Origin: Labilithrix sp.
Lineage (GTDB): Bacteria; Myxococcota_A; Polyangia; Polyangiales; Polyangiaceae
NCBI GenBank assembly: GCA_019637105.1
Contig: JAHBWF010000012.1
Coordinates: 26,510-90,509 of the forward strand
Direction: 5' to 3'
DNA length: 64,000 bases
Below are positions 15,322-53,744 of the stretch, piece after piece. Position numbers and translations under genes: made by a program. Position 1 is the stretch's first letter. Every line of letters begins with the position of its first letter. The notes under the pieces were generated by a model. That model worked only from the letters and a program-made list of their open reading frames with translations. It was not told the origin of the DNA and made no database searches.

Positions 15322-15472
15322 CTAGTACCCGGACGCCATGATTTCGACCGGTTCGTTCCGCCCCCACGACGAACGAGAGGTCGGACCGAACCTCCCGTCA
15401 TCGCGCGGGCATGCGTCCTGGAGTGTCTCTCTCGCGATCGGGCCTCGGCACGTCGAGATCGACGGGTCGAGG
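15322..15472. repeat. CTAGT-bounded hairpin element, family A copy 1
   Basis: Intergenic element whose first 39 bases are identical to the copy at 53589. It starts CTAGTACCCGGACGCC and contains an 11-bp hairpin (15350-15360 with 15382-15392, one mismatch). It ends with a second, less perfect hairpin closing on GACGGGTCGAGG. The left end lies 10 nt upstream of cyaY. Beyond it, a 15-bp sequence is directly repeated around 15479-15510. Confidence 0.75.
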
Positions 15473-15553
15473 TTTCACGCCGCGCGCCCGGACGCCGCGC
15501 GCCCGGACGCCGCGCGACCAGCACATGCGACGGCGCCCGGCGGATCGCGGCGC

Positions 15554-15931
15554 TCAGTTGAGGGAGTACGGCAGCGTGAGCGAGAACGGGGCGATCGTCG
15601 CGTCGAACTCGCGGCCGTCGGGACGGTGCATCTGGTAGGTGCCGCGCATCTCGCCGCGCGGCGTCGTCAGGACGCAGCCGCTCGTGTACTCGAACTGGTC
15701 GCCCGGGTTGAGGAAGGGCTGCTGCCCGACGACGCCGGGGCCCTTCACCTCTTCGATGCGGCCGTCGCCGTCGGTGATGATCCAGTGGCGGCTCCTCAGC
15801 TGGGCGGGGGTCTCGCCTTCGTTCGCGATCTTCACGGTATAGGCGAAAACGTAGCGGTGCGTGCGCGGCGAGGACTGCTCGGGCACGTAGACCGCCCGGA
15901 CGCTGACCTTGATCCCTTCGGTGGTGGCCAT
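15554..15931 (-). CDS. apaG: ApaG-family protein
   Basis: A 125-residue fibronectin-III-like beta-sandwich protein of the ApaG family (formerly DUF525). Family motifs are FAYTVKIANEGETPAQLRSRHW, the VVGQQPFLNPGDQFEYTSG stretch and the RGTYQM segment near the end. The family is found in many proteobacteria, sometimes linked to diadenosine tetraphosphate hydrolase. Its molecular role is not settled. The ATG at 15931 is used; upstream ORF extension is spurious. It is divergent from the amidase gene with a 42-bp gap. Confidence 0.93.
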   Translation of the reverse strand: MATTEGIKVSVRAVYVPEQSSPRTHRYVFAYTVKIANEGETPAQLRSRHWIITDGDGRIEEVKGPGVVGQQPFLNPGDQFEYTSGCVLTTPRGEMRGTYQMHRPDGREFDATIAPFSLTLPYSLN

Positions 15932-15973
15932 GGACACGGCTACCAAGTGCCATTTGCGCGGCCGGCTGGCAAT

Positions 15974-17659
15974 ATGCCGCTCATCACCATGGCCGACACC
16001 CCGCGCTCTCCACGCCTCAGCGGCGCTCCGCTCCGCAACCTCGCTCGCCTCGCGCGCACGCGTGTCGGCGGCGTCGCGCTCCAGCGCGTCCTCCGCGCCG
16101 AGCTCCGGATCGACCGCCTCGCGACGCTCCCGGACCACCTCCGCGGCGACCTCCCGCTCGACACCAACGCGCACCCCGGACGCCCGCCGCGCTCGGCGCC
16201 CTCCGAGGGGCTGCCGCCGCCCACCGGGCAGAGCTGGGCGCCGACGAGCGCCACGCTGACGGCGGCCTACCGGAGCGGCGAGGTCTCGCCGCGCGACGTC
16301 GTACGCCGCGCGTTCGCCGAGGCGAGCCGCCTCGCCGCGCTCGAGCCCTCGGTCGGCCCGCTCTCCGAGCTCGCGGAGGAGGCCGCGCTCGCGGAGGCCG
16401 AGGCCTCGGAGCAGCGCTGGCGCGAGGGGCGCCCGCTCGGCTTCTTCGACGGCGTCCCGTGGGCCGTGAAGGAGCAGACGGCCGTGCGAGGGCTCGCGCG
16501 CCGCTCCGGGACGGCGTTCGTCGATCCGTCCCCGCGCGAAGAGGACGCGACGGCCGTCGGCCGTGTCCGCGCGGGCGGCGCGATCACGCTCGGCGCGACG
16601 CCGATGACCGAGTTCGGCATGACGCCGAACGGCGCCAACTCCAAGCGCTCGATGCCGCGCAACCCCCACGCCGTCGCCCACCTCGCCGGCGGGTCCTCGA
16701 CCGGCTCCGGCGTCGCCGTGGCGACCGGCCTCGTCCCCTTCGCGCTCGGCTGCGACGGCGGCGGGTCGATCCGCATCCCCGCCGCGATCAACGGCGTCTT
16801 CGGGATCAAGCCCACCTGGGGCCGCGTCAGCCGCTCGGGGGACAGCTCCAACGGCTCCCTCGCGCACCTCGGTCCGCTCGCCTGCTCGACCGTGGACCTC
16901 GCGCACGCGCTCGAGCTCCTGAGCGGGCCCGATCCGAACGATCCGCAGACCTTCGCCGCCCCACGGCGCGAGGCGGGCTCCTTCGTCGGCGCGCTGTCGC
17001 GCGGCGTCCGCGGGACGGTGATCGGCGTCCCCGACTCCGAGTGGGCCGACGCCTCCGAGCCGGTGCAGCGCGCGGGCCGCGCCGCGCTCGCGGCGCTCGA
17101 GGAGGAGGGCGCCGTCCTCGTCCCGATCCAGCTCGAGCTCGCCAAGTACGCCGCGGCCATCGGCTACGTCGTCATCGCCAGCGAGGCGCGCGCGCTGCTC
17201 AGCGCGGAGTGGCGCGACCACGCCGACGAGATGGGGGACGACCTCCAGGTCAGCTTCTCCGCGGTCGACGCGTTCAACGCGCTCGAGTACCTCGACGTCT
17301 GCCGTCTCCGCACCGGGCTCCGCCGGGAGCTCGCGCGCGCCTTCGGCACGATCGACCTCCTCGCGCTGCCGTCCGCCGGCGCCGCGGCGGCGAAGGTCTC
17401 CGACACCGACATGCGCACGGGCTTCCTCGACGCCAAGGTGATCGACGCGCTCTGCCGGTTCATGTTCCTCGGCAACCTCTCGGGCCTGCCCGCGCTCTCG
17501 GCCCCGGTCGGCTGCGACGCGGCGGGGCTGCCGGTCGGCCTCCAGCTCGTCGGTGACGCCTGGGACGAGGCCACGGTCCTCGCCGCCGCCGCGCACCTCG
17601 AGCGCGTCGGCGTCGCCGTCCCGCGCCGGCCGCGGATCACGGCGTCGCTCCTCGACTGA
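15974..17659 (+). CDS. Amidase signature family hydrolase
   Basis: Amidohydrolase of the Ser-cisSer-Lys type. The catalytic lysine is in GVPWAVKEQ, the cis-serine in LAGGSSTGSGVAVATG and the nucleophile in CDGGGSIRIPAAINGVFGIKPTWGR. At about 561 residues it has a 90-residue N-terminal extension ahead of the canonical domain (APTSATLTAAYRSGEVSPRDVV). It is not clearly GatA: no gatB or gatC is adjacent, so the substrate is unknown. Two in-frame ATGs exist (15974 and 15989); the first is used. The long open frame upstream passes through the repeat element and apaG and is spurious. Confidence 0.9.
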   Translation: MPLITMADTPRSPRLSGAPLRNLARLARTRVGGVALQRVLRAELRIDRLATLPDHLRGDLPLDTNAHPGRPPRSAPSEGLPPPTGQSWAPTSATLTAAYRSGEVSPRDVVRRAFAEASRLAALEPSVGPLSELAEEAALAEAEASEQRWREGRPLGFFDGVPWAVKEQTAVRGLARRSGTAFVDPSPREEDATAVGRVRAGGAITLGATPMTEFGMTPNGANSKRSMPRNPHAVAHLAGGSSTGSGVAVATGLVPFALGCDGGGSIRIPAAINGVFGIKPTWGRVSRSGDSSNGSLAHLGPLACSTVDLAHALELLSGPDPNDPQTFAAPRREAGSFVGALSRGVRGTVIGVPDSEWADASEPVQRAGRAALAALEEEGAVLVPIQLELAKYAAAIGYVVIASEARALLSAEWRDHADEMGDDLQVSFSAVDAFNALEYLDVCRLRTGLRRELARAFGTIDLLALPSAGAAAAKVSDTDMRTGFLDAKVIDALCRFMFLGNLSGLPALSAPVGCDAAGLPVGLQLVGDAWDEATVLAAAAHLERVGVAVPRRPRITASLLD

Positions 17660-17753
17660 CGGCCCGGGCCGCCCGAGGAGACGACGACCCGACCGATCCA
17701 CGAATCGCGCGGGCGATCGGCGGCGCGGCAGGAGCGCGACCGCAAAACGTCGC

Positions 17754-17781
17754 TTGATTCGCGGCGCGCACGAGTTATGGA
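17754..17781 (+). promoter_or_regulatory. Candidate promoter of the arginine cluster
   Basis: TTGATT and TATGGA separated by 16 bp, with the -10-like hexamer ending 13 nt before the argF' ATG at 17795. If used, transcription would start within the apparent AGGGAGG Shine-Dalgarno or just after it, giving a very short leader. Confidence 0.45.
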
Positions 17782-17794
17782 GGGAGGTCCATCG

Positions 17795-18835
17795 ATGGCC
17801 ATCCGCCACTTCCTCTCCACGCTCGACTGGTCGCGCTCCGAGCTCGACGAGATCCTCGTCGACGCCGCCGAGCTCAAGGCGACGCGCAAGACCGCGCGTC
17901 CGGCGCACCTCGCCGGCAAGAGCGTCGCGCTCGTCTTCTTCAACCCGTCGCTCCGGACGCGCTCGTCGTTCGAGATCGGCGTGTTCGAGATGGGCGGTCA
18001 CGCGGTCGTCCTCGAGCCCGGCAAGGGCGCGTGGCCGATCGAGTACCGTGACGGCGTCGTGATGGACGCGGACGCCGAGGAGCACGTCGAGGAGGTCGCG
18101 CGCGTCCTGTCGCGCTACTGCGACCTCATCTGCGTGCGGGCGTTCCCGAAGTTCCAGCGGTGGGAGGACGACCGCGAGGACCTCGTGATCCGCCAGTTCG
18201 CGAAGTTCGCGACGGTGCCGGTCATCAACATGGAGACGATCACGCACCCGTGTCAGGAGCTCGCGATCATGCTGGCGCTCAAGGAGCGCCTCGGGACGGG
18301 CGCGGGCGACGCGCGCGCGACCGACGGCAAGAAGCTCGTCTTGACGTGGACGTACCACCCGAAGCCGCTCAACACCGCCGTCGCCAACTCGGCGCTGATC
18401 ATCGCGGCCAAGTTCGGCTTCGACGTGACCCTCCTCTGCCCGACGCCCGACTACGTGCTCGACCCGCGCTACATGGCCGCGGCCGAGGCGAGCGCCGCGG
18501 AGAACGGCCGGAAGATCACCGTCTCCCACGACGTCGAGTCGGCCTACGCGGGGGCGCACGTCGTCTACGCCAAGAGCTGGGGAGCCTTGCCCTACTTCGG
18601 GCGCTGGGAAGAGGAGAAGCCGATCCGCGATCGGCACCGGCACTTCATCGTCGACGCGAAGAAGATGAGCCTCACCGACGACGCCTTCTTCAGCCACTGC
18701 CTCCCGCTCCGCCGCAACGTCAAGGCCACCGACGAGGTCGTGAGCGGCCCGCGCTCGCTCGTCATCGAAGAGGCGGAGAACCGCCTCCACGTCCAGAAGG
18801 CGCTGATGAAGCGCCTCGCGCACGCCGCGCCCTAG
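17795..18835 (+). CDS. argF': N-acetylornithine carbamoyltransferase
   Basis: Transfers a carbamoyl group to N-acetyl-L-ornithine, giving N-acetylcitrulline, in place of the usual ornithine reaction. It closely follows the Xanthomonas acetylornithine transcarbamylase: the carbamoyl-phosphate loop FFNPSLRTRSSFE, the segment EPGKGAWPIEY (whose glutamate distinguishes acetylornithine from succinylornithine enzymes), VLTWTYHPKPLNTAVANSAL and HCLPLRRNVKATDEV. The length is 346 residues from the ATG at 17795. A Met six codons upstream is less likely. It is first in the argF'-argB/A-argC-carB run. Its TAG stop is formed by the CTAGT end of a repeat element. Confidence 0.93.
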   Translation: MAIRHFLSTLDWSRSELDEILVDAAELKATRKTARPAHLAGKSVALVFFNPSLRTRSSFEIGVFEMGGHAVVLEPGKGAWPIEYRDGVVMDADAEEHVEEVARVLSRYCDLICVRAFPKFQRWEDDREDLVIRQFAKFATVPVINMETITHPCQELAIMLALKERLGTGAGDARATDGKKLVLTWTYHPKPLNTAVANSALIIAAKFGFDVTLLCPTPDYVLDPRYMAAAEASAAENGRKITVSHDVESAYAGAHVVYAKSWGALPYFGRWEEEKPIRDRHRHFIVDAKKMSLTDDAFFSHCLPLRRNVKATDEVVSGPRSLVIEEAENRLHVQKALMKRLAHAAP

Positions 18836-18964
18836 TGCCGAAGGCACGAACTGAGACCAGCCAGGAAGCGAGCCAGGAATGTCGTCAAGGCCAGGAATTC
18901 TGGCGCCCTCAAGAGCGAAGCGGGCGCCGGAATTCCTGGCCGAACTTTGGGCGAGCGGTACTAG
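18832..18964. repeat. CTAGT-bounded hairpin element, family B copy (arg cluster)
   Basis: A 133-bp element lying exactly between CTAG (18832) and CTAG (18961). It contains a small hairpin GTGCC-GAA-GGCAC at the left end and a 20-bp stem (18889-18908 with 18922-18941, one G-T pair) around the 13-nt loop TCAAGAGCGAAGC. The stem sequence is unrelated to those at 47215 and 52948, but the loop is nearly identical. The left end supplies the argF' stop codon. The right end (TACTAG) is 33 nt before the argB/A start. Confidence 0.8.
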
Positions 18965-18997
18965 CGCCGCGCCGTCGCCCAACTGGAGATCCGGAAG

Positions 18998-20395
18998 ATG
19001 ACGAACAAGGAGAAGGAGACGCAGGACGTCATCGTCCGCCTCCTCACCAACATCGGCAGCCGCAAGGAGGTCGAGCAGTACCTCAAGCACTACGCGAGCG
19101 TCGACGCGCCGAAGTTCGCCGTCGTGAAGGTGAGCGGCGCGATCATCGACCGCTCGCTCGACGCGCTCGCCTCGTCGATGTCCTTCCTCCAGCGCGTCGG
19201 CCTCGTGCCGATCGTCGTCCACGGCGGCAACGTCCAGCTCGACCGCGCGCTCGCCCAGGCCGGGGTCGACGCCCCGGTCGTGAAGGGCCTCCGCAAGATG
19301 ACGCCGGCGGCCCTGGAGATCGCGCGGCGCGTCCTGCACGACACGAACCTCCGCCTGGTCGAGGCGCTCGAGGGCCTCGAGACGCGCGCGCGCCCGTTCA
19401 CCTCCGGCGTCGTCGAGGCGAAGAAGTCCGAGTCGCCCGATCTCGGGCTGATCGGCGCGATCACCGCGGTGCGCGAGGCCGCGATCGCCCAGACGGCGCG
19501 CGGCGGGGTCCTGCCGATCGTCGCGCCGCTCGGCGAGACGCCGAAGGGCCAGATCCTCGTCGTCCACGCGGACGCCGTGGCGCGAGCGATCGCGCTGGCC
19601 CTCAAGCCGCACAAGGTCGTCTTCCTCAACGAGGTCGGCGGGCTCGTCGACGGCACCGGCGCCGTCCGCTCGGCGGTGAACCTCGCCGAGGACTACGCCG
19701 AGCTCAGCCAGGACACGGCGCTCGATCCCGAGTCGCAGCGCAAGCTCATCGAGATCAACGCGCTCCTGTCCGAGCTCCCGCCGACCTCCTCGGTGTCGAT
19801 CACGTCGCCGGAGCACCTGGCCAAGGAGCTCTTCACCCACGGCGGACACGGCACGCTCGTCCGGCGCGGCGAGAAGGTCGTCCGGCACGACGACTGGAGC
19901 ACGCTCGACCGCGACCGCCTCCGCGCGCTGCTCGAAGAGTGCTTCGCGCGGAGGCTCGACGAGCGGTACTTCGACGAGAAGGCGCCGCACCGCGTCTTCC
20001 TCGCCGAGTCGTACCGCGCGACCGCGATCCTGACGACGGAGCACGGGGTGCCGTACCTCGACAAGTTCGCCGTCACCAACGAGGCGCAGGGCGAGGGCAT
20101 CGGCGGCTCGCTCTGGCAGCGGATGCGCCGCGACACGCCCAAGCTCTTCTGGCGCTCGCGCGCCAACAACCCGGTCAACGCGTGGTACGCCCAGAAGGCC
20201 GACGGCCTCTACAAGACGCAGAAGTGGTGGGTCTTCTGGAGCGGCATGAGCGACTTCGGCGAGATCCAGCGCTCGGTCGAGCGCGCCCTCGAGATGCCCG
20301 CGACCTTCTACGACGCGCCGTCGTCGCCGATGGCGGCCGCCGCGTCCGCGGCCGCCGACGCCGCTCCCCCCGCGTCGGTCACCCCTCCCGGATGA
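18998..20395 (+). CDS. argB: Bifunctional acetylglutamate kinase / N-acetylglutamate synthase
   Basis: Performs the first and second steps of arginine synthesis in one protein. Residues about 30-290 are an amino-acid kinase domain (VKVSGAIIDRSLD, VPIVVHGGNVQLDRAL, GQILVVHADAVARAIA, VVFLNEVGGLVDG). Residues about 295-440 form a vertebrate-type NAGS acetyltransferase domain (AESYRATAILTTEHGVPYLDKFAVTNEAQGEGIGGSLWQRM and WRSRANNPVNAWYAQKADG). This fused architecture is known from Xanthomonas and relatives and usually accompanies acetylornithine carbamoyltransferase, as here. The ATG is preceded by CTGGAG and GGAAG. The domain pair implies arginine feedback control. Confidence 0.93.
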   Translation: MTNKEKETQDVIVRLLTNIGSRKEVEQYLKHYASVDAPKFAVVKVSGAIIDRSLDALASSMSFLQRVGLVPIVVHGGNVQLDRALAQAGVDAPVVKGLRKMTPAALEIARRVLHDTNLRLVEALEGLETRARPFTSGVVEAKKSESPDLGLIGAITAVREAAIAQTARGGVLPIVAPLGETPKGQILVVHADAVARAIALALKPHKVVFLNEVGGLVDGTGAVRSAVNLAEDYAELSQDTALDPESQRKLIEINALLSELPPTSSVSITSPEHLAKELFTHGGHGTLVRRGEKVVRHDDWSTLDRDRLRALLEECFARRLDERYFDEKAPHRVFLAESYRATAILTTEHGVPYLDKFAVTNEAQGEGIGGSLWQRMRRDTPKLFWRSRANNPVNAWYAQKADGLYKTQKWWVFWSGMSDFGEIQRSVERALEMPATFYDAPSSPMAAAASAAADAAPPASVTPPG

Positions 20396-20469
20396 AGGCG
20401 TCGCGGAGCCGCGCCCGGCTCGATCGACGCCTGGTGGTCGGGCGATCGATCGGCTAAAGACCGGCCAAC

Positions 20470-21369
20470 GTGAAGCGGAACGTCGCCATCGTCGGAGCGC
20501 GCGGTCACACCGGCCGCGAGCTCGTCACCCTCGTCGAGGGTCACGGTTCGTTCGAGCTCGCGCTCTCCGTATCCGCGCGCGACGGGATGTCGCCGGAGGA
20601 CGTCGCCGCGGCGAAGCTCGACGCGTACTTCCTCGCGCTCCCGAACGGCGCGACCGCGGCGTACGTCGACGCGATCGCGCTGTCGCGGCCCGACGCCGTG
20701 CTCGTCGATTTGTCGGCCGACCATCGCTTCGACGACGCCTGGATCTACGGCCAACCCGAGCGCCGCCGCGAGGCGATCCGCGGCGCCAAGCGGATCTCGA
20801 ACCCCGGGTGCTACGCCACCGCCGCGCAGCTCGCGCTCGCGCCGCTCGCGCCGCTCTTCGACGGGCCTCCGAGCGTCTTCGGCGTCAGCGGCTACAGCGG
20901 CGCCGGGACGACGCCGTCGCCGAAGAACGACCCCGAGGTCCTGCGCGACAACCTCCTGCCGTACTCGCTCGTCGACCACGTCCACGAGCGCGAGGTCTCG
21001 CGGCAGCTCGGCGCCCGCGTCTTCTTCTCCCCGCACGTCGCGCCGTTCTTCCGAGGCATCACGGTGACGGCGTCGGTCGCGCTCCGCGAGGAGACGTCGC
21101 GCGACGCCTTGGCCGACCGCTACCGCGCGGCGTACGGGCACGAGCCGATGGTGACGCTCTCGGAGGAGCCGCCGCTCGTGCGCGACATCGTCGGCAAGCA
21201 CCACGTGGCGATCGGCGGCCTCTCGGTGGCGAAGGACGGCCGCCACGCGGTGGTCGTCGCCACCGTCGACAACCTCCTCGGCGGCGCCGCCTCGCAGGCG
21301 CTCCGCAACCTGAACCTCGCGCTCGGCCTCCCCGAGCTCACCGGGATCCCCGATGCCGCGCCGCGCTGA
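20470..21369 (+). CDS. argC: N-acetyl-gamma-glutamyl-phosphate reductase
   Basis: NADPH-dependent third step of arginine synthesis. A Rossmann motif ([21 protein letters not shown]) is followed by the catalytic cysteine C114 in [15 protein letters not shown]. The ending [12 protein letters not shown] is typical of the family. At 299 residues it is on the short side, similar to the Xanthomonas-type enzyme. The start is GTG at 20470, 11 nt after a GCTAAA hexamer. The 3' end overlaps the carB start by 17 nt. Confidence 0.93.
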
Positions 21370-24300
21370 CCTCGAGCGCGTCCTCGTGCTGGGCGCCGGG
21401 CCGATCGTCATCGGTCAAGGCTGCGAGTTCGACTACTCCGGGACGCAGGGGATCCGCGCGCTCCGCGACGAGGGCTACGAGGTCGTCCTCGTCAACTCGA
21501 ACCCGGCGACGATCATGACGGATCCGGAGCTCGCGGACCGCACCTACGTCGAGCCGCTCGATCTGCGCGCCGCCCGCGCGATCGTCGACAAAGAGCGGCC
21601 GAGCGCGATCTTGCCGACGCTCGGCGGCCAGACCGCGCTGAACCTCGCGCTCGGCCTGGAGGACGACGGCACGCTCGCGCGCCTCGGCGTCGAGCTGCTC
21701 GGCGCGCGGCCCGAGGCGATCCGCAAGGCCGAGGACCGCGCGCTCTTCAAGGCCGCGATGGAGCGGATCGGGCTCGAGTGCCCGCGCGCCGTCGTGGCGC
21801 GCTCGCGGGACGAGGCGCGGGCGGCGCTGCGCGACTTCGGGCTGCCGCTCGTCCTGCGCCCGTCGTTCACGCTCGGGGGAACGGGCGGAGGGATCGTCCG
21901 CGCCGAGGACGAGCTCGACGCGAAGGTCGCGCAGGCGCTCGCCGAGTCGCCCTCGCGCGAGGTGCTGGTCGAGGAGAGCCTGCTCGGCTGGAAGGAGTTC
22001 GAGCTCGAGGTCATCCGCGACCGGCGCGACAACTTCATCGTCGTCTGCACGATCGAGAACCTCGACCCGCTCGGCGTGCACACCGGCGACTCGATCACCG
22101 TCGCCCCGGCGATGACGCTGACGGACAAGGAGTACCAGCGCCTCCGCGACGCCGCGCGCGCCGTGATGAGCGAGATCGGCGTCGAGACGGGCGGCGCCAA
22201 CGTGCAGTTCGCCGTACGCCCGGCCGACGGCGCGATGCGCGTCATCGAGATGAACCCGCGCGTCTCGCGGTCGAGCGCCCTCGCGTCGAAGGCGACCGGC
22301 TACCCGATCGCCAAGATCGCGACCAAGCTCGCCGTCGGCTACAGCCTCGACGAGCTCCGGAACGATCTGACGGGGACGAGCGCCGCCTTCGAGCCCGCGC
22401 TCGACTACGTCGTCGTGAAGTGGCCGCGGTTCGCGTTCGACAAGTTCCCCGACGCCGACGACGCGCTCGGCACGCAGATGAAGAGCGTGGGCGAGACGAT
22501 GGCGATCGGGCGCACCTTCGTCGAGGCGGTGCAGAAGGCCGCGCGCGGCCTCGAGACCGGCCTCGACGGGCTCACCCCGGCGTCGAGCGAGCCGCGCGAC
22601 GTCGCGCGCGTCCTCGAGCTGGCGGCGCGGCCGAACGACCGCCGGCTCCTCCACGTCGTCGACGCGCTCCGAGCCGGCGCGAGCCACGACGACCTCGTCG
22701 CCGCCACCGCGATCGACCCGTGGTTCATCGCCCAGCTCCAGCGCGTGGTCGACGCCGAGCGCGCGGCCGCCGCCGGCGGCGAGGCCGGGCTCGCGTCCGC
22801 CGCCGAGATGCTCCGGCTGAAGCGCCTGGGGCTGTCCGACGCGCGGCTCGGGCGGCTCGTCGGCGCGACCGAGGACGAGGTGCGCGCGCTGCGCGAGGCC
22901 TCCGGCGTGAGGCCCACGTTCGCGCGCGTCGACACGTGCGCGGCGGAGATCCCGGGCACCACGCCCTACCTCTACGCGACGTGGGAGAGCGAGAGCGACG
23001 ACCTCGCGCCCGCCCCCACGCTCGCGCCGGCCGGCGCGCGGAGGCCGAAGGTCGTCGTGCTCGGCGCGGGGCCGAACCGCATCGGGCAAGGCATCGAGTT
23101 CGACTACTGCTGCGTCCACGCCGTCGCCGCGGCGCGCGAGCTCGGGTTCGAGGCGATCATGGTCAACTCGAACCCGGAGACGGTGTCGACCGACTACGAC
23201 ATCGCCGACCGCCTCTACTTCGAGCCGATCACGCTGGAGAGCGTGCTCGCGATCTGCGACGCCGAAGAGCCCGACGGCGTGCTCGTCCAGCTCGGCGGGC
23301 AGACGCCGCTCCGCCTCGCCGGCGCGCTCGCCGCCCGCGGGCTCCGGCTCTTCGGGACGAGCGCCGACGCCATCGATCGCGCGGAGGACCGCGGGCGCTT
23401 CGACGCCGTGCTCGAGAAGCTCGGGCTGCGCCGCCCCGCGAGCGCCGTCGCGCGGACGCACGCCGAGGTCCACGCCGCCGCGGAGCGCCTCGGCTGGCCG
23501 GTGCTCGTGCGCCCGAGCTACGTCCTCGGCGGACGCGCGATGAAGATCGCCCGGACCGCCGACGAGCTCGACGCGCACCTCGCGCGCATGCCGCTCGACG
23601 CAGACGACGCCGTGATCCTCGTCGACCGCTTCCTCGCCGACGCGATCGAGATCGACGTCGACTGCGTCTCCGACGGCGCGCGCGTCGTCATCGGCGCGGT
23701 GATGGAGCACCTCGAGCGCGCCGGCGTCCACTCGGGCGACTCGGCCACGGTCCTCCCGCCCTTCACGCTGCGGGCGGACGTCGTCGACGAGATCGAGCGC
23801 GTCGTCCGCGCGCTCGCCCTCGAGCTCGGCGTCGTCGGCTTGATGAACGCGCAGCTCGCCGTCAAGGACGGCCGCGTCTACGTCCTCGAGGTCAACCCGC
23901 GCGCGAGCCGCACGGTGCCGTTCGTGTCGAAGGCCACCGGCGTACCGCTCGCGCGCATCGCGACGAAGGTGATGCTCGGCAAGACGCTCGACGAGCTCGG
24001 CGTGACGGACCCGCCGCTCGGCCGCCACGTCGCGGCGAAGGAGTGCGTCTTCCCGTTCAAGAAGCTGCCCGGCGCGGACACGGTCCTCGGACCGGAGATG
24101 CGCTCGACCGGCGAGGTCATGGGCGTCGGCGAGACCGCCGCGCGCGCCTACGCCAAGGCCCTCCGGGCGATCGGCGTCCAGCTCCGCGCCCCGCGCCCGG
24201 GCGAGACCGCGAAGGCGCTGCTGGCCGTCTCGAGCACCGACCAGAGCGTCGTCGTCGAGATCGCGCGCCGCCTCCGGGCGATCGGCTTCACGATCGCGGC

Positions 24301-24589: not shown

Positions 24590-24603
24590 CCGCGGTCGGG
24601 CGC

Positions 24604-24620: not shown

Positions 24621-24642
24621 CCCGCGCCGGCCGCCGGGGGGC

Positions 24643-43012: not shown

Positions 43013-43018
43013 GGGTTG

Positions 43019-44054: not shown

Positions 44055-44066
44055 CCCGCGCGAACG

Positions 44067-45782: not shown

Positions 45783-45800
45783 CGCGCGCGGCGCGAGCGT

Positions 45801-45852
45801 CGGCGTGCGCCGCGGGGCGCGAGCGGCGGCGTGCGCCGCGGGGCGCGAGCCT
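45801..45852. repeat. 26-bp direct duplication
   Basis: Two adjacent copies of a 26-bp GC-rich unit containing GGCGTGCGCCGCGGGGCGCG in the 69-bp gap between the convergent orphan and DsbA-like genes. The unit itself contains GC-rich inverted sequence and may form the terminator hairpin. Confidence 0.7.
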
Positions 45853-47204: not shown

Positions 47205-47214
47205 GGATGCCGGT

Positions 47215-47383
47215 CTAGTGTCCCGAGTCCGCAAGGACTCGGGCACGGGAAAGGAGAAAAAGGAACGTGTCCCGAGTCAACGTGTCCCGAGTTCGACGTT
47301 CGGCTTCGTCGGACCCTCGCGAGGCCCTCACCAGCGAAGCGGGCCTCGTGAGGGTCCGACGAACCATGGACTCAGGACACTAG
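47215..47383. repeat. CTAGT-bounded hairpin element, family B copy 1
   Basis: A 169-bp element bounded by CTAG on both sides with 16-bp terminal inverted repeats (CTAGTGTCCCGAGTCC and GGACTCAGGACACTAG, one mismatch). The left end folds as a 12-bp hairpin with a GCAA loop. The centre folds as a 23-bp stem (47305-47327 with 47341-47363, one G-T pair) closed by TCACCAGCGAAGC. A 14-bp motif (ACGTGTCCCGAGTC) is duplicated inside. It resembles a non-autonomous mobile element; no transposase is nearby. Confidence 0.85.
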
Positions 47384-47578
47384 CACGCCATCGCCGGGAT
47401 CACGCGCCGTGACCCTCCGCTCGGGCGCCGTTCCGTCGGGCCCCCGTTTCGTCGGGCCTCCGTCGAGCCCCGTTCCGTCGGGCGCTCGAAACGAGGCTCC
47501 TCGCGCGCGCTCCGATCCGTGGCCTTCGTTCTCGGGATCGGCGCAGCCGCGTTGCGCCGTATGCTGCGCCTCGCAGCC
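47384..47578. other. Intergenic segment with short direct repeats and a promoter-like box
   Basis: No gene is supported in this stretch; with the hairpin element to its left it forms a 374-bp gap. Three copies of GTTYCGTCGGGC occur at 47430, 47446 and 47472. TATGCT at 47560-47565 ends 13 nt before the ATG of the next gene and is a candidate -10 box. Confidence 0.5.
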
Positions 47579-48541
47579 ATGGATGTCCTCGAGCACCTCC
47601 TCTCGGCGCCGGTGGAGCGCCCTGCTCCGCCCGACCTCGCCGCGTGGTCCGCGCGCCTCGCCGCGTGTCCCTTCCCCCGCCCGATCGATCGCGCCCTCTG
47701 GGCGGGCTTCGAGTCCGACCGCCTGGGCTACGCCTTCGTCGGCGGCTACCGCGCCGCGCTGTCGCGCCTCCTCGCGTGGGGCGCGGAGACGCTCGGCGAC
47801 GCGACGGAGCGGCCCTACGCCTGGCCCCCGAGCGACGCGCGGCTCTGCCTCGCGGCGACGGAGTCCGGGGGCGCTCACCCTCGCGCGATCGCGACGACGC
47901 TCCGCGAGGAGCGCGGCGCGCTCGTCGTCCGGGGCGAGAAGACGTTCGCCACGCTGGCGTCCGCCTCCGACGAGCTGCTCGTCGTCGTCTCGCGCGGCGC
48001 CGACGCCGAGGGGAGGAGCCGCCTCGCCCTCGTCCGCGTCCGCGCGGGCTCACCGGGGCTCGTCGTCGCGGACCGCCCGCCGACGCCCTTCGCGCCCGAG
48101 ATCCCCCACGCGCGCGTGACCTTGAACGACGTCGTCGTCGCGAGCGACGACGTCCTGCCCGGCGACGGCTACGCGGTGTACCTCAAGCCGTTCCGCACGA
48201 TCGAAGACGTCCACGTCCTCGCCGCCGCGCTCGGCCTCGTCGTCCGGTCGGCGCGCGCGTTCGGCGACGGCCGCGTCGTCGCGGAGACGGCGTGCGCGCT
48301 GGCCGTCGCGCTCCGCGACCTCTCCGACCGCGCGCCGTCGGATCCCGCCGCCCACGTCGCGCTCTCCGGCCTCTTCCACGGCGCCCAGACGCTCTTCGCG
48401 ACGCACGCCGACGCGTGGAAGGAGGCCGACCCCGACGCCGCCGAGCGCTGGCGCCGCGACGCTCCCCTCTTGCTCGTCGCCGACGGCGCCCGCCAGAAGC
48501 GCACCGCCGCCGCCTGGCAGCTCCTCACCTCGCCGCCGTGA
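47579..48541 (+). CDS. Degenerate acyl-CoA dehydrogenase-like protein
   Basis: A 320-residue protein whose middle section keeps the acyl-CoA dehydrogenase beta-domain pattern (LCLAATESGGAHPRAIATTLREERGALVVRGEKTFATLASASDELLVV, and VTLNDVVVASDDVLPGDGY). The C-terminal helical domain is shortened, and the catalytic YEGTSE-type region and FAD-contact GGYGY motif are absent. It is shorter than the family norm of about 380. It is probably a non-catalytic or altered-function relative. The ATG at 47579 is chosen for its distance from a TATGCT box. No operon partner. Confidence 0.72.
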   Translation: MDVLEHLLSAPVERPAPPDLAAWSARLAACPFPRPIDRALWAGFESDRLGYAFVGGYRAALSRLLAWGAETLGDATERPYAWPPSDARLCLAATESGGAHPRAIATTLREERGALVVRGEKTFATLASASDELLVVVSRGADAEGRSRLALVRVRAGSPGLVVADRPPTPFAPEIPHARVTLNDVVVASDDVLPGDGYAVYLKPFRTIEDVHVLAAALGLVVRSARAFGDGRVVAETACALAVALRDLSDRAPSDPAAHVALSGLFHGAQTLFATHADAWKEADPDAAERWRRDAPLLLVADGARQKRTAAAWQLLTSPP

Positions 48542-48545
48542 GCCG

Positions 48546-48640
48546 CCCACGCCGTGAGCTCCACGCCGTGAGCGCCACGCCATGAGCCGCCCACGCCGTG
48601 AGCGGCCACGCCATAAGCCGCCCTCGAGACGCCCGCCGCG
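48546..48640. repeat. Degenerate CACGCCRTRAGC repeats
   Basis: Five to six copies of a short motif CACGCC(G/A)T(G/A)AGC spaced 15-18 bp apart, just after the stop of the acyl-CoA dehydrogenase-like gene in its 190-bp convergent gap. Origin unclear; possibly slippage. Confidence 0.65.
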
Positions 48641-48731
48641 CCCGTCCGCGGCCTCGCCTTCGAGGCGAACGACCTGCCGGCCCGCGCGACCACGGCTCGA
48701 GCCGTAGCCCCTCCGCAGTCCGACGAACCGT

Positions 48732-50846
48732 TCAACCCGTCGTCGAGGGCGTGACGCCGGCCGCTGCCCGCCCGGGGCGCTTCGACGTGGCGAAGGCGAG
48801 CGCGTAGAACAACGCGGCGACGACCACGAGCATTCGGAACCCGAGCATCGTCGAGAGGTACTCGACGAGCCCGCCCGCGACCGCTCCGACCAGGTTCGAC
48901 GCCAACGCTCGGTCCGCGTCGCCGGTACGGCCGAGACTCGAGGCGAAGACGACGCCGCTCGCGAGCATCGGCAGCGAGACGAGCGTGACGCCGACGACGG
49001 TGCGTCCCACCAGCGACAACTCGCCGACGTCCCCCACGTCGACCGCGAACTGAAGCAGGAGCGACACGGCGAGGAACGCATAGGTCAGGCGAACGACCCG
49101 TGGAGGCACGTTCGCTCCCCCGAAACGTCCCGCGAGGAGGGTCGACACGAGCGCCATCACGAGCACGCCCGCGAAGACCGCCGAGGTCACCGCCCACGTC
49201 GAGCCGACGAGGAGCGCCAGCACGGCCAACCCGCGGGTCTCGACGAGCAAGAACCCCGCTCCAAGCGCGAAGAAGTGCGCGTCGAAGCCGCGGAAGCGCG
49301 CGCCAGTGCCCACTCGGACGAGGACGGCCGACGCGATCGCCATGAGCGCCATGGCGATGAGATACTCGCGTGGAATCGCTCGATCGCGGAGGTAGACGAA
49401 CGGCCAGTCGTCGGTGAACGCGACGGTGCCCGGTGGCGCCGGCCTGCCCGTCGGCACGAGGTCACCCGCCGCGTACACGTAGCCCACGGGATGCGCGATG
49501 GAGTCGCTGACACGCAACGGTGGCCGCTCGAAGGCATGCGTGAGCGTCGCCGTCATGTGCTGGACGAACCAAGGTGTCCCGACGGCGTGACTCACGACGA
49601 GGATCCCTCCTGCAGCGAGGCGGCTCCGCGCGAGCGTGAAGCTCTCGACGGTGAAGACGTACGAGTCCAGCCGCACGTTGCTCAAGCTGCTGAGGAGGAC
49701 GTGCGAGTCGAGAAGCCCATAGACGATCATGTCGAACCGCGCGTCCGTGCGAGCAAGGAACGAGCGTGCGTCGGTGAGGTGAGCCGTTACGCGCGGATCG
49801 TCGTAGGGCCTCTCGGGGTGACGGCGCCCGAGGGCGAGGATCTCCGGGTCGATCTCGACGGCATCGACGTGCACCGCCCCTGCCCGCAGCGCCGCCGCGA
49901 CGTCGTTACCCGTACCGGCACCGAGCACGAGCACTCGACCAGGCGGCCGCGCCGAATAGGGCAGATCGTACTGCACACGCATCGGCACCAGGGCGGGAGC
50001 TTCCTTCAACGCCGCGTCACGGAGGTCCATCGGAGTCTGGTACGAGTCGTCGTTCACGCGGACGGTGAACCCACGCTCCGGCGGAAGCGTCACGAGCTCG
50101 GCGAGATCGTCCGCGCTCAGGTTAGGAACGTCCCACTCTTGAATGATCCCGCGCTGCGGGTGCATACGCAGCGGCGCCGTCGTTATCTTCTGGTACGGAG
50201 ACCACGTCGCGTCGTGCGTTCCTTGCCAGCCGAGAATGACCGCGACGAGCACTCCCGCGACGCCGCTGACGCGAAAGATCCGGGGAGCCGAAACCAGGCC
50301 GGCCAAGAGTGACGCCCCCGCCAGCGCGAGCCAGAGCCACGGCCACGTTCCAAGAGCGGAGAGCACCGCAAAAACGGCGACGCCGACCAAGCTGCCGACG
50401 ACGTTGAGCGCGTACCGCCGAAGCGGACGCGGCCCCGCGAGCGTGTGACCGACCCAGAGCCCGATCGGGACGAACGCGAGCGCGATGAGCGCGTACGCGA
50501 TACCGAGGAACGGATAGAGCGGGACGGCGAACGCCTTCGTCTGATACTCGAGGAACAGGACTTCTTCACCCGACGTCATGACGCGAAGCGTTCGGCCCAG
50601 CCGCGCGAACGCGACGAGCGCTGCGATCGTCAGCGGCGCGCACCACCGGATCTGGTCCGCCCGTCGCCAGCGACGAACACCGAGCATTCCTACGCCCAGC
50701 CCCACGAAAGCCGCGAGAAGAACGAAGTTCGTGAAGTACCCGAGGACGCGGATCTGCCCCGGCAGATAGCGAATGATCGTCAGCTCCACGAGTAGACTCG
50801 CCCCGCCGGCGGCAAGCACCTGGAAGGCCGCAGAGTCCTTCTTCAT
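48732..50846 (-). CDS. Membrane-embedded spermidine-synthase-like methyltransferase-fold protein
   Basis: A 704-residue protein with a polyamine-synthase-like domain between two blocks of membrane helices. About seven helices come first (AAGGASLLVELTIIRYLPG onward). Residues about 290-480 follow with VLVLGAGTGNDVAAALRAGAVHVDAVEIDPEIL and DPRVTAHLTDARSFL, typical of spermidine synthase/SAM-fold domains. Then come seven more helices (EYLIAMALMAIASAVLVRV onward). The catalytic aspartate region reads FDMIVYGLLDS, so polyamine chemistry is uncertain. Base composition and codon use look less GC-extreme than in flanking genes, suggesting transfer. The start is at MKKDSAAF. Confidence 0.82.
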   Translation of the reverse strand: MKKDSAAFQVLAAGGASLLVELTIIRYLPGQIRVLGYFTNFVLLAAFVGLGVGMLGVRRWRRADQIRWCAPLTIAALVAFARLGRTLRVMTSGEEVLFLEYQTKAFAVPLYPFLGIAYALIALAFVPIGLWVGHTLAGPRPLRRYALNVVGSLVGVAVFAVLSALGTWPWLWLALAGASLLAGLVSAPRIFRVSGVAGVLVAVILGWQGTHDATWSPYQKITTAPLRMHPQRGIIQEWDVPNLSADDLAELVTLPPERGFTVRVNDDSYQTPMDLRDAALKEAPALVPMRVQYDLPYSARPPGRVLVLGAGTGNDVAAALRAGAVHVDAVEIDPEILALGRRHPERPYDDPRVTAHLTDARSFLARTDARFDMIVYGLLDSHVLLSSLSNVRLDSYVFTVESFTLARSRLAAGGILVVSHAVGTPWFVQHMTATLTHAFERPPLRVSDSIAHPVGYVYAAGDLVPTGRPAPPGTVAFTDDWPFVYLRDRAIPREYLIAMALMAIASAVLVRVGTGARFRGFDAHFFALGAGFLLVETRGLAVLALLVGSTWAVTSAVFAGVLVMALVSTLLAGRFGGANVPPRVVRLTYAFLAVSLLLQFAVDVGDVGELSLVGRTVVGVTLVSLPMLASGVVFASSLGRTGDADRALASNLVGAVAGGLVEYLSTMLGFRMLVVVAALFYALAFATSKRPGRAAAGVTPSTTG

Positions 50847-51018
50847 GACACGCAGACTAGAACGCAACGAGCGTATTTCGGTGACGAAGTGCGCTCTCGC
50901 TCCAGGGCGATAGGATCGGCCGCTCTCTCACCGCGACGTCGGCGGAAAGCGTCCGATTCCGGCCGCTGAAGACGACGGCGGGCACGAGGCGCGGAGAGTC
51001 GGGTACGCTGGGGGACCG

Positions 51019-51909
51019 ATGAGTCGCGCAACGATCCTCTTCTCGGCGCCCGATCGACCTGGTCTGGTCGCTCGGCTCTCGGGCTTCTTCTACGAGCTCG
51101 GGCTCAACATCCTCGAGGCCAGCAACTACACCGATCTCCACGGCGAGCGCGGCGCGCGCTTCTACATGCGCGTCGTGGTCGATCTCGCCGGCCTCGCGGC
51201 GCCGCAGGCGCACGACAAGCTCGGCGGCTCGGCGACGCGCTCCGCGATGGAGGCCGCCTTCGCCGAGCGGATCGCGGCGCCGCTCGAGGGCGAGTGGTCC
51301 GTAGGCTACGAGGACCGCGTCGCGCGCGTCTGCGTCATGGTCACGAAGGATCCGACCTGCCTCTACGATCTCGCGCTCCGTCAGAAGCAAGGCGAGCTGC
51401 CGTGCGAGATCGCGCTCGTCGTGAGCAACCACCCGACGCTCGAGTCGGCCGCGCAGTCGTTCCGGCTCCCGTTCTACGCGCTGCCCGTCACCAAGGAGAC
51501 GAAGCCCGAGCAGGAGGCCCGCGTGCTCGAGCTGCTCAAGCGGCACGACGTCGACCTCGTCGTCCTCGCCCGCTACATGCAAGTCCTCTCCGACGGGTTC
51601 CTCCGCGACGCCCCGCCGGTCATCAACATCCACCACGGCTTCCTCCCCGCCTTCCAGGGCGCGAAGCCCTACCACCAGGCGCACGCGCGCGGCGTGAAGC
51701 TGATCGGCGCGACGGCGCACTACGCGACGAAGGACCTCGACGAGGGGCCGATCATCGAGCAGGACGTCGAGCGGATCACGCACGCGCTCGGCCCCGACGA
51801 TCTCGTGCGCGTCGGCCGCGACGTCGAGCGCGTCGTCCTCGCCCGCGCGGTGCGCGCCCACCTCGAGCGCCGCGTCATCGTCGAAGGACGCCGCACGTTC
51901 GTCCTCTGA
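51019..51909 (+). CDS. purU: Formyltetrahydrofolate deformylase
   Basis: Hydrolyses 10-formyl-tetrahydrofolate to formate and tetrahydrofolate, supplying formate for PurT-type purine synthesis and one-carbon balance. The N-terminal ACT domain (ILFSAPDRPGLVARLSGFFYELGLNILEASNY) is followed by the formyltransferase-like catalytic domain with VVLARYMQVLS, INIHHGFLPAFQGAKPYHQA and GATAHYATKDLDEGPIIEQD, including the conserved Asn-His-Asp set. The 296-residue length is slightly above the usual 280-290. TACGCT lies 9 nt before the ATG. Confidence 0.95.
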   Translation: MSRATILFSAPDRPGLVARLSGFFYELGLNILEASNYTDLHGERGARFYMRVVVDLAGLAAPQAHDKLGGSATRSAMEAAFAERIAAPLEGEWSVGYEDRVARVCVMVTKDPTCLYDLALRQKQGELPCEIALVVSNHPTLESAAQSFRLPFYALPVTKETKPEQEARVLELLKRHDVDLVVLARYMQVLSDGFLRDAPPVINIHHGFLPAFQGAKPYHQAHARGVKLIGATAHYATKDLDEGPIIEQDVERITHALGPDDLVRVGRDVERVVLARAVRAHLERRVIVEGRRTFVL

Positions 51910-52105
51910 TCCGAGCTCCCCTCCGAGGCGCTCCGATCCTCGCCCGTCGGCCCGGCATATGAACCCCGGCGGCGGCGCACGGCGAGCGCGCCGGCGCGGG
52001 CAACGGACTTGCGGCGTCGGCGCGCGTCGAACCGCGGGCGTGAAACGAAGGTGAAACGGGACGGCGCGCGCTGGCGCGTCGCGTCGCGCACCTCATCATG
52101 TCGCC

Positions 52106-52951
52106 ATGCCCGTCGTCGTCTCCGTCGCGGCCGCCGTCGCCGTCGGCTCCGCCCTCGCCGTCCAACACGTCCGCGCCGGTCGTCGCGCGGGCCTCACGAT
52201 CACCCATCACCGGATCCCCTGGCCCGGCAGGCGCACGATTCGCGTCGCGCAGCTCACCGACGTCCACGTCGGGCTCACGACCCCGCGGCGAGCGCTCGCG
52301 CGCGTCGCCGAGACCGTCCACGGGCTTCGCTGCGACGTCGTGGTGATGACCGGCGACTACGTGAACGCGTCCCTCTTTCACGTCGACCGCGTCACCGAGC
52401 TCGTCCGATCGCTGCCGCAGCCCTGCGTCGCCGTGCTCGGGAACCACGACCACTGGACCGGTCCCGAACGCGTGACGCGCGCGCTCGAGGCCGGCGGCGC
52501 GCGGGTCCTCCGCAACGCGTCCACGGAGCTCCGCGGCGACCGCTGGTCGCTCGTCGTCGTCGGCGTCGACGACGGGCGGACCAAGAACGACGACGTCGCG
52601 CGCGCGTTCGCCCGCGTCGACGCCCCGCGACGGGCGCTCACGCTGACCCACGATCCGCGGACCGCCGCGGCGATCGCGAAGACCGGCGCCCCGCTCGTGC
52701 TCGCCGGCCACACGCACGCGGGCCAGATCCACGTCCCGCGTGTCCTCCCGCGGATCGCCGAGCTCGCGGGCCACCCCTACCTTCACGGGTTTCACCGCGT
52801 CGAGCAGACCGATCTCTACGTCAGCGCCGGCGTCGGTCACTCGCTGCCCGGCCTACGGTCGGCGCGCACCGCGCCGGAGATCGCCGTGTTCGATCTCGAT
52901 CCGAGCGTACGGAGACGTCACTCGAGCGTCCTGCGCGCGCCGCTCGACTAG
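52106..52951 (+). CDS. Metallophosphoesterase (YkuE/YaeI-like)
   Basis: A 281-residue calcineurin-like phosphoesterase with an N-terminal hydrophobic segment (VVVSVAAAVAVGSALAV) serving as membrane anchor. Metal motifs are AQLTDVHVG (DxH), MTGDYVN (GD), VLGNHDHWTG (GNHD), LTHDP and LAGHTHAGQIHVP (GHTHxGQ), which marks the YkuE/YaeI (UDP-2,3-diacylglucosamine hydrolase-like) branch. The substrate may be a phospholipid or lipid A intermediate. Its TAG stop is supplied by the CTAGT end of the hairpin element downstream. Confidence 0.9.
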   Translation: MPVVVSVAAAVAVGSALAVQHVRAGRRAGLTITHHRIPWPGRRTIRVAQLTDVHVGLTTPRRALARVAETVHGLRCDVVVMTGDYVNASLFHVDRVTELVRSLPQPCVAVLGNHDHWTGPERVTRALEAGGARVLRNASTELRGDRWSLVVVGVDDGRTKNDDVARAFARVDAPRRALTLTHDPRTAAAIAKTGAPLVLAGHTHAGQIHVPRVLPRIAELAGHPYLHGFHRVEQTDLYVSAGVGHSLPGLRSARTAPEIAVFDLDPSVRRRHSSVLRAPLD

Positions 52952-53100
52952 TGTCCCGGGTCCGCAAGGACTCGGGCACGGATAAGGAGAACCGTAACGT
53001 GTCCCGAGTCCGACGTTCGGCTTCGTCGGACCCTCGCGAGGCCCTCCCGGGCGAAGCGGGCCTCGCGATTCCCCGACGAACCATGGCCTCAGGACACGAG
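52948..53100. repeat. CTAGT-bounded hairpin element, family B copy 2
   Basis: A 153-bp element closely related to that at 47215: the same left hairpin with GCAA loop, the same left stem arm (53022-53044), loop TCCCGGGCGAAGC and right arm 53058-53080. The right arm carries a 4-base block change that opens an internal loop. The right terminus is decayed (GGACACGAG instead of GGACACTAG). The left terminus forms the stop codon of the phosphoesterase gene. Confidence 0.82.
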
Positions 53101-53204
53101 GCGCGCGCCCTCGCCGCGGGCGCGGCCGACGCCACGCCTCGGAGCGCGCGGCCGGCGCCGCGCCTCGGGGCTCACCGCGGGCGCGGCGCCTCGGGTGCGA
53201 CGCC

Positions 53205-53531
53205 TCAAGACTTGTTGAGGAACTTCTCCGGATCCTCTTCGAACTTCTTCTTGCAGCCGCCGCAGCAGAGATAATACGTCTTGCCGCCGTGCTCGACCTT
53301 CGGCGACGTCGCGTCGACGACGAACTCCTCGCCGGACACCGGGCACCGCGCGGTGTCGCCCACCTCGGCCTCCCCCGGCGCCTTCACCGGCCCGCCGGAC
53401 GGCTTCGCCCCGTGGTGCTCGTCGTGGTGACCGTGCTCCGCCGCGGGCGTCGCGGGCGCCGCGCTCTCGGCGCTGTTGCCGCCGCACGCGACGACGAGCC
53501 CGAACGCCAGCACTCCGATCCATCGCTTCAT
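53205..53531 (-). CDS. Small His-rich lipoprotein with YHS-type metal-binding domain
   Basis: A 108-residue predicted lipoprotein (lipobox LVVACGG, C16). A His-rich linker (HGHHDEHHG) precedes a YHS/TRASH-like domain: RCPVSGEEFVVDATSPKVEHGGKTYYLCCGGCKKKFEEDPEKFL. The cysteines of CPVSG and CCGGC are the expected metal ligands. Likely binds copper, nickel or another heavy metal in the periplasm. GGGAGGAACG precedes the ATG as a Shine-Dalgarno sequence. Confidence 0.88.
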   Translation of the reverse strand: MKRWIGVLAFGLVVACGGNSAESAAPATPAAEHGHHDEHHGAKPSGGPVKAPGEAEVGDTARCPVSGEEFVVDATSPKVEHGGKTYYLCCGGCKKKFEEDPEKFLNKS

Positions 53532-53588
53532 CGTCGTTCCTCCCGAGTCGTACGCTCGGTCGCACGAGCGGCGCCGAGCACGAGAAGA

Positions 53589-53744
53589 CTAGTACCCGGA
53601 CGCCATGATTTCGACCGGTTCGTTCCGCCCCACCCCCCACGACGAGCGCGGGGTCGGAACCAACCTCCCGCCCTCGCGCGGCCTCGTGCCCCGGGGAGCT
53701 TCGTTCATGGCCGTCCCTCGACCCGTCGATCCGACGGGTCGAGG
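53589..53744. repeat. CTAGT-bounded hairpin element, family A copy 2
   Basis: Second copy of the element at 15322, identical over the first 39 bases and then diverging. The first hairpin (53617-53627 with 53655-53665) has one mismatch. The final hairpin is perfect: CCTCGACCCGTC and GACGGGTCGAGG with a 5-nt loop (53716-53744). The CTAGT end faces the YHS lipoprotein gene 57 nt away, where TACTAG could be its -10 box. Confidence 0.78.

Follow-up and report, generated by a model that had tools for sequence, protein, structure and literature searches.

The 64,000-nucleotide stretch of Labilithrix DNA that was analysed (the window) carries five short elements (Table 1), all of them real and each starting with CTAGT, at 15322, 18832, 47215, 52948 and 53589, as a preliminary description had it. 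They are part of a large dispersed superfamily of repeats, represented here by family A (47215 and 52948), family B (15322 and 53589) and family C (18832). CTAG occurs 12 times in the window, where shuffled sequences would lead one to expect 71, and seven of these occurrences are termini of the five elements. The two family B copies had been called related to the other three; they do belong to the superfamily, but they lie in the opposite orientation and the copy at 53589 ends at 53751, not at 53744. Once reversed, this copy has the common order H1-linker-H2-right end. The 16-bp terminal inverted repeats described for the 169-bp copy at 47215 are present, although they match at 15 of the 16 positions.

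Table 1. Positions of the five elements in the window and of the parts of the fold in the full-length family A copy
Feature	Positions	Strand	Remarks
Family B element	15322..15472	-	reversed; far-end CTAG lost
Family C element	18832..18964	+	20-bp H2 stem, loop TCAAGAGCGAAGC
Family A element, full length	47215..47383	+	CTAG at both ends; extra internal insertion of ~15 nt
H1, left-end hairpin	47218..47246	+	GTG-T-CCCGAGTCC, GCAA loop, GGACTCGGG-CAC; contains left terminal inverted repeat
H3, 5' strand	47282..47294	+	internal partner of right terminal repeat
H2	47305..47363	+	23-bp stem, 13-nt loop TCACCAGCGAAGC
H3, 3' strand (right terminal inverted repeat)	47368..47380	+	GGACTCAGGACAC before TAG
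Family A element	52948..53100	+	right CTAG decayed to CGAG; four H2 pairs broken
Family B element	53589..53751	-	one CTAG decayed to CTCG

The shared architecture is CTA, a hairpin that holds the left end (H1), a linker, a stem (H3) that encloses the long hairpin H2, and TAG; H3 joins an internal segment to the right end. The stem lengths first described for the copies at 18832 and 47215 proved correct, and the folds of these two copies are each better than all of 200 shuffles. Full pairing of the stems, which had also been claimed, fails at 52948, H3 is not supported in the copy at 18832, and the fold at 15322 does not stand out, being matched by 92 of 200 shuffles. GNAA-like left loops are found in family A but are absent from the other aligned families.

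We then scanned the whole window with a covariance model built from eight elements (two family A copies outside the window, the element at 18832 and five from other genomes). The model recovered 52948-53100 at 140 bits, 47215-47383 at 130 bits and 18832-18964, a training member, at 92.6 bits. The family B copies were recovered weakly on the minus strand (15322-15479, 20.2 bits, E 0.007; 53589-53751, 18.9 bits, E 0.014) and are poorly separated from background, the next match, at 10800, scoring 18.4 bits. Three other equally high-ranked matches are antisense hits on the same five elements. The scan returned all five places, and chance hairpins were rejected as an explanation.

Families and distribution

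A genome search returned many copies beyond the five. Family A is found at ~40 distinct places in the window's genome at E ≤ 10, with at least 31 covariance-model matches, and about 24 places of family B pass E ≤ 2e-5, including a few partial or mosaic ones; family C has one full copy and three partial right ends. Among the 109 genomes searched, 13 have covariance-model matches. The copy numbers per genome from this multi-genome search are lower bounds, and weak matches were lost under the stricter filters applied to searches over more than 40 genomes. Many deletion copies persist, some of only 36 bp, and copies without H2 occur at four loci in one other genome (G070).

The cross-family alignment (A4) had 42 rows, nine of which were antisense or overlapping and were dropped before counts were made. 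All 33 remaining rows are 133-157 bp long. Sequence-distinct families from eight genera share this length, the order of parts, the ends and the start of the loop, TCRCC. Like MITEs, the elements are small, non-coding, dispersed and of multiple copies.

Terminal repeats and a candidate mobilizer

The elements terminate in inverted repeats set in CTAG, which has often decayed. These termini correspond to those of IS630-family elements with an intact transposase, with as many as 24 of 24 bases identical. The right end of family A, CTAGTGTCCTGAGTCCATGG, aligns with the end CTAGTGTCCTGAGTCCATGA of an IS630 element (L147) on a contig listed as a Labilithrix luteola MAG; the 386-codon frame of the latter is the IS630 transposase NF033545 at 9e-78, with DDE_3. 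Over 24 nt, the right end of an element in another genome (G109) is identical to the right end of an IS from an Acidimicrobiaceae MAG; the ORF of this IS is assigned to IS630 at 5e-79, and the right end at 18832 matches an IS630 end at a further locus (L178). When the best member of each of 19 families is compared with a shuffle null, a match to an IS630 end at p ≤ 0.05, uncorrected for the choice of best member, is found for the right end in 17 families and for the left end in 12, the scores being lowered for rows that do not end exactly at CTAG (G003a and G063b). The earlier reading of the elements as a transposition substrate is supported. The view that selection acts on the fold rather than on sequence is not, since the ends are constrained in sequence and match those of IS630.

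CTAG is retained at both ends in five of 26 family A copies, one of 10 family B copies and eight of 10 copies in G070, and at one or both ends in 19 of the 26 and all 10 of the family A and B copies, respectively. A preference for CTAG was reportedly described by Tenzen and Ohtsubo in 1991. In the account of ISY100, the TA target is duplicated.

The preliminary description saw no transposase in the window, and our search, which covered the DDE_3 and Y1 families, had no match to either there. The wider check for a cognate transposase yielded IS630 elements with matching ends, mostly in relatives, but the window's genome, a draft of 91.5% completeness, yielded no intact IS630. This genome has a single degenerate IS630 fragment (G000:C323); it was rejected as an autonomous copy, as ends matching the elements were not seen. 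MITEs need not be accompanied by a cognate transposase in their own genome. The presence of IS630 does not track the elements (seven of 13 carrier genomes versus 42 of 96 others), and there is no DDE_3 match in G070, with about 40 places (fragments included), or in G112, with at least 25 copies. The fold model found no full element at the ends of five IS630 loci (best 16.4 bits, E 0.026), so the fold is not inherited from IS630. In Terriglobus albidus, locus L266 includes a 134-bp element with one common end, the fold of which was not recognised by the model (13.8 bits).

We regard the elements as probably being non-autonomous MITEs of the IS630/Tc1-mariner group, with a conserved, covarying single-strand fold that is likely to be under selection. 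The best candidate for the mobilizer is a DDE transposase of double-stranded DNA, none of which was found intact in this genome, so that mobilisation by IS630 is something we infer. An IS630 transposase acting in trans would recognise the element ends, and the element would be inserted at CTAG with duplication of the central TA. Selection would act on the folded plus strand, within the element's own life cycle.

Covariation of the fold between and within families

The stems were originally described as covarying, and this is evident between families. Pairing in the cross-family alignment is 94.5% of cells versus 69.2% after shuffling (0 of 500 shuffles as high), a value that may be inflated, as may the G·T excess below, because alignments A3 and A4 were fitted to the model and their matches came from a plus-strand model. 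Across families, 25 of 35 stem pairs have changed on both sides and yet remain paired (25 of 39 by RNAalifold). When arms are swapped among the 19 families, pairing drops from 94.4 to 65.9% in H1 and from 90.8 to 59.3% in H2; H3 has an energy of -17.6 kcal/mol within a family versus -12.6 between families (permutation P = 5e-5). The structure model scores ~22-49 bits above a sequence-only profile for distant members and 6 bits above it for one (L217), in a rough comparison between different programs. Within family A, however, almost no covariation is found: among its 26 copies, four pairs have changed on both sides versus 3.9 in shuffles, a second count gives three of 36 pairs (covariation term +0.16), and at three central pairs of the long stem approximately half of the copies are mismatched. 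Thus, covarying pairs on a conserved fold, as expected of a structured RNA, are seen between families and not within family A. The recurrence of the same fold on changing stems suggests that the folded form itself matters for the spread or survival of the elements. G·T pairs outnumber A·C pairs on one strand (45 versus 18, P = 9e-4; 13 versus 2 by family), which hints at a single-stranded form, RNA or DNA.

Mean column identity over the 19 families is 0.75 and 0.86 at the ends, 0.69 in the H2 loop, 0.63 in the stems and 0.56 in the linker; the ends alone clearly surpass the stems in sequence conservation. The loop, which had been called conserved, is modestly so (seven of its 12 positions reach 60%), and the linker is lower. 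These values bear on the somewhat unlikely alternative that the elements are ordinary MITEs in which template switching or foldback formation, and not selection, keeps the palindrome arms alike. Because conservation in loop and linker hardly exceeds that of the stems, we give this alternative more weight, and the IS630 MITE and single-strand readings less. It would also fit the persistence of deletion copies, and family A itself, in which arms with ACCA/TGGT and GGAA/TTCC alleles occur in mixed combinations and match in only approximately half of the copies. Against it stand the recurrence of length, part order, ends and loop start in sequence-distinct families of eight genera, the joining of two distant segments by H3, and the excess of G·T over A·C.

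If the elements are IS630-type MITEs under selection for their fold, a further step can be proposed tentatively. Transposases of the IS630 DDE type are thought to act only on double-stranded DNA. Because the complement of each end sits on the same strand, both ends would be double-stranded in a single-stranded element, and might be recognisable there, for instance at replication forks or after DNA uptake. It is possible, though doubtful at present, that a single-stranded stage (DNA or RNA) is obligate and selected, with the internal partners changing along with each family's ends.

Single-strand transposition, host functions and known repeats

It is quite unlikely that the elements are REPIN-like or IS200/IS605-like, with a Y1 or RAYT transposase recognising terminal hairpins in single-stranded DNA and CTAG serving as the cleavage tetranucleotide. 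A REPIN is a pair of inverted REP units that share one sequence and have a GTAG/GGAG-type tetranucleotide, whereas the two domains of the present elements are unlike and the tetranucleotide is CTAG. The left-end hairpin does adjoin CTAG, a stem closes the right end, and the strand asymmetry of G·T over A·C would be in keeping with such a mechanism, but the ends are inverted repeats that match those of IS630. A RAYT-like ORF (L088) is present in the window's genome; it was rejected as a neighbour of the elements, since no family A, B or C element lies within 1.5 kb on either side, and the nearest listed family B copy is ~14 kb away on the same contig. Y1 genes occur in seven of 13 carrier genomes versus 43 of 96 others, with none at E ≤ 0.01 in carriers G112, G016, G110, G068, G020 and G065; linkage to, or co-occurrence with, a Y1/RAYT gene is thus not supported. 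REPINs with RAYT, as described, conserve hairpin capacity and spacer length and commonly show compensatory changes (PMC3116915). The present elements resemble them in conserved hairpin capacity, spacer length and compensatory changes, a point in favour of this alternative, but differ in having IS630-type ends and two unlike domains instead of a Y1 single-strand transposase and a symmetric REP pair.

Still less likely is that a transposon has spread a structured RNA of use to the host, or a bidirectional terminator. The hairpins are very stable, but across 77 copies, 51 neighbouring genes have their end at the element and 53 their start, without side preference for gene ends (23 versus 28), and 11 copies lie between divergent genes. 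This lack of bias towards gene ends argues against a terminator. The elements have no match in Rfam, so a known Rfam RNA was rejected. At 18832 and 52948 the first CTAG provides the TAG that ends mechanical ORFs of 352 and 281 aa; stop-codon placement was rejected as a signal because in GC-rich DNA most CGAG control sites (2960 of 4040) also have at least 100 open codons.

Parts of this picture are known from other bacteria. RUP of pneumococcus is a dispersed MITE of ~107 bp at TA sites, with ends matching IS630-Spn1 (PMC2229807), and in this respect it is like the present elements; the cited account does not describe a superfamily with covarying stems for RUP, whereas here one fold is common to 19 families with different ends. 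CIR repeats of Caulobacter and Brucella have two long inverted-repeat arms, a linker and a phylogenetically conserved RNA secondary structure (PMC2229807), as do the present elements in arms, linker and conserved fold. Their mobility mechanism is left unresolved in that account, whereas our elements have ends that match IS630 and sit in CTAG. MITEPsy1 of Pseudomonas syringae is a 100-bp MITE, the insertion of which duplicates CTAG or YTAA; its assignment to the IS5 group carries a question mark, and it may have originated from ISPsy2 (PMC3189936). It resembles the present elements as a short MITE associated with CTAG, but its ends as printed there are unlike theirs.

MITEs of double-strand transposons have usually been described by sequence, their hairpins being regarded as by-products. 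Here, 19 sequence-distinct families have one fold, the stems of which covary, including those formed by the transposon ends. A covariance model can detect elements that escape sequence searches, and a single-stranded stage in IS630/Tc1-mariner mobility becomes testable. If the proposal is true, a single-stranded form would be an obligate, selected stage for elements of a transposase of the double-stranded DNA type.

Copies of the elements and their CTAG sites

The five elements of the window have the sequences and places reported in the preliminary description, and they fall into three families, A, B and C. The genome of the window (8.45 Mb in 334 contigs, 91.5% complete) holds family A at about 40 places and family B at 24 places, together with one full copy and three partial right ends of family C. 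CTAG is about six-fold rarer than expected across the window (12 sites vs 71 expected), and the ends of the five elements account for seven of the 12. Genome-wide, many element ends read CTCG or CGAG, decayed from CTAG. CTAG is intact at both ends in 5 of 26 A copies and 1 of 10 B copies, both being old families, and in 8 of 10 copies of a younger-looking family in another genome, G070.

Coordinates of the features (starts only for the window elements)
Feature	Location	Positions	Strand
Family B element	window	15322	
Family C element	window	18832	
Family A element	window	47215	
Family A element	window	52948	
Family B element	window	53589	
CTAG depletion	window	1-64000	
Degenerate IS630 fragment (L087)	window's genome (G000), C323	1-560	
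RAYT-like Y1 transposase ORF, 302 aa, SNHYH and YTLANP motifs (L088)	window's genome (G000), C291	889-1797 of L088	-
134-bp element (L266)	Terriglobus albidus	5050-5183 of L266	

Many copies in the window's genome are internally deleted with both ends kept, the shortest being 36 bp; four such 36-bp elements (L089, L093, L098 and L100) are barely more than two ends, and all share GGACTC at the junction. Head-to-tail tandem copies that meet at, or have in common, a terminal CTAG-type site can be found at L233/L244 (G016, C25), L247 (G112, C73) and L181 (G063). At six G070 loci (L219, L222, L224, L225, L228 and L230), another mobile element with ends CTAGGGCCTGTCCCTGAATT is seemingly inserted in or beside an internal CTAG of the G070 elements, and may also use CTAG. 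Since the right flank GATATGGTTGGACCCGTC... is common to L202, L210 and L213 of G070 up to the contig ends, another repeat adjoins the right end of these three copies.

A covarying fold across families

The fold comprises a left-end hairpin (H1), a long right hairpin (H2) and a stem that pairs the linker with the right end and encloses H2 (H3). Compensatory stem changes, proposed in the preliminary description, are borne out across families and not by pair count within family A. Among 26 A copies, four pairs have changed on both sides vs 3.9 after shuffling (3 of 36 pairs by RNAalifold), so that there is no excess of compensation by count; the observed covariation score, however, is 0.104 (0.084 after shuffling) and is reached by only 1 of 500 shuffles. 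The covariance model of family A retrieves elements with differing stems from other genomes, and it scores the 18832 element at 44.7 bits and reversed B copies at 18-24 bits; with a sequence-only profile, these distant members reach 10-27 bits and B is missed. In an alignment of eight elements, which was fitted to the model and is thereby biased toward pairing, 94.5% of cells are paired vs 69.2% after shuffling, and 25 of 35 pairs have changed on both sides (25 of 39 by RNAalifold), the observed score being reached by none of 500 shuffles.

The eight-element model has matches in 13 of 109 genomes (8 of 48 genera), including 9 genomes outside training. Of 42 rows, we kept 33 (133-157 bp) and grouped them ourselves by genome and type of stem, which gave 19 families. 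When 3′ arms are exchanged between families, the paired fraction falls to 65.9% in H1 (from 94.4%) and to 59.3% in H2 (from 90.8%). H3, absent from the model and noticed in the alignment, pairs at -17.6 kcal/mol within families vs -12.6 kcal/mol between them (reached by 0 of 20,000 permutations), and is no better than the between-family mean in family C, G110b, one G068 row and one G070 row.

Measured as mean identity to the column majority, conservation is highest over the first six bases (0.86) and in the right end (0.75), followed by the H2 loop (0.69), the stems (0.63) and the linker (0.56), which overall is not conserved; therefore, only the ends clearly exceed the stems. The H2 loop retains an initial TCRCC and a final GG, but its overall conservation is weaker than the preliminary description claimed. 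Since neither loop nor linker stands out much from the stems in conservation, the odds fall slightly for the leading reading as IS630 MITEs and for a single-stranded form as an obligate, selected stage, and rise for upkeep of the fold by mutation (template switching or foldback) without selection. Plus-strand mismatches, counted in arms whose alignment used Watson-Crick pairs alone, are G·T in 45 cases vs A·C in 18 (P = 9e-4), G·T prevailing in 13 families and A·C in 2, although rows of the same family are not independent and the matches came from a plus-strand model. This G·T excess favors a single-stranded plus strand.

IS630-type ends

The IS630 transposase domain DDE_3 was matched in 49 of the 109 genomes of the family, from which 70 loci, some overlapping, were fetched (L109-L178). 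An inverted-repeat pair of IS size is present at 38 of the 70, and 18 of these 38 pairs have CTAG at both ends (17 distinct ones, as L137 and L176 are the same IS). The ends of family A match L147 (ORF of 386 codons, IS630 transposase, 9e-78), those of B match L139 (397 codons, IS630 transposase, 9.9e-69) and L125, and that of C matches L178, an IS630 locus truncated at the end of its contig. By pattern scan of named genomes, the L147 contig belongs to a Labilithrix luteola MAG (Polyangiales), and an Acidimicrobiaceae MAG carries an IS with an IS630 ORF (5.4e-79); the right ends of this IS and of a G109 element are identical for 24 nt. With the best member of each family scored against a null of shuffled ends, a match to one of 41 IS630 ends (P ≤ 0.05) is found for the right end in 17 of 19 families and for the left end in 12 of 19. 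Separately, one end of the Terriglobus albidus element shares an identical 18-nt stretch with the A right end, without the common fold.

CTAG is reportedly preferred by IS630, going by the title of a 1991 paper by Tenzen and Ohtsubo. TA is described as the IS630 insertion target in an account of ISY100. Judged from sequence, the elements are most likely IS630 MITEs, because their ends match IS630 ends and lie in CTAG; RUP is described as an IS630 MITE on the same kind of evidence (PMC2229807). The elements combine IS630-type ends in CTAG with a covarying fold that holds both ends. At the level of titles and abstract openings, no description of them was found in literature on myxobacterial or Myxococcota MITEs, on IS630 with CTAG or on MITEs with compensatory secondary structure (comparison literature, seen in part: PMC3189936, PMC2170065, PMC2229807 and PMC3116915).

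Transposases and the role of the fold

Transposase searches covered the IS630 (DDE_3) and Y1 families. The DDE_3 search found no intact IS630 in the window's genome; its sole match there is L087, at a contig end, with no CTAGTG-type end seen. IS630 is no commoner in element carriers (7 of 13) than in other genomes (42 of 96), and G070 and G112 are copy-rich yet have no DDE_3 match, which draft-assembly gaps or a loss following a burst could explain. Nor do Y1 transposases follow the distribution of the elements (7 of 13 carriers vs 43 of 96 others); short repeats upstream of the RAYT-like ORF are unrelated to the elements.

The fold is not carried by the five IS630 loci tested (best 16.4 bits) and therefore belongs to the MITEs. 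G070 copies at four loci (L215, L218, L221 and L223) lack H2, which is thus not strictly required for persistence and may be dispensable for movement. Two of the four have a common derived base at the junction, a hint of spread after deletion.

By codon-position GC over 77 copies, the elements adjoin 51 ends and 53 starts of neighboring genes, and the gene ends show no side preference (23 vs 28). A terminator role is unlikely from position, as gene ends at the elements are no commoner than starts; with no such bias, the structure seems to serve the element rather than the neighboring gene. IS630 would mobilize the elements in trans, and selection would act on their single-stranded form, in which each end might find a complement on the same strand, leaving both ends duplex in single-stranded DNA.
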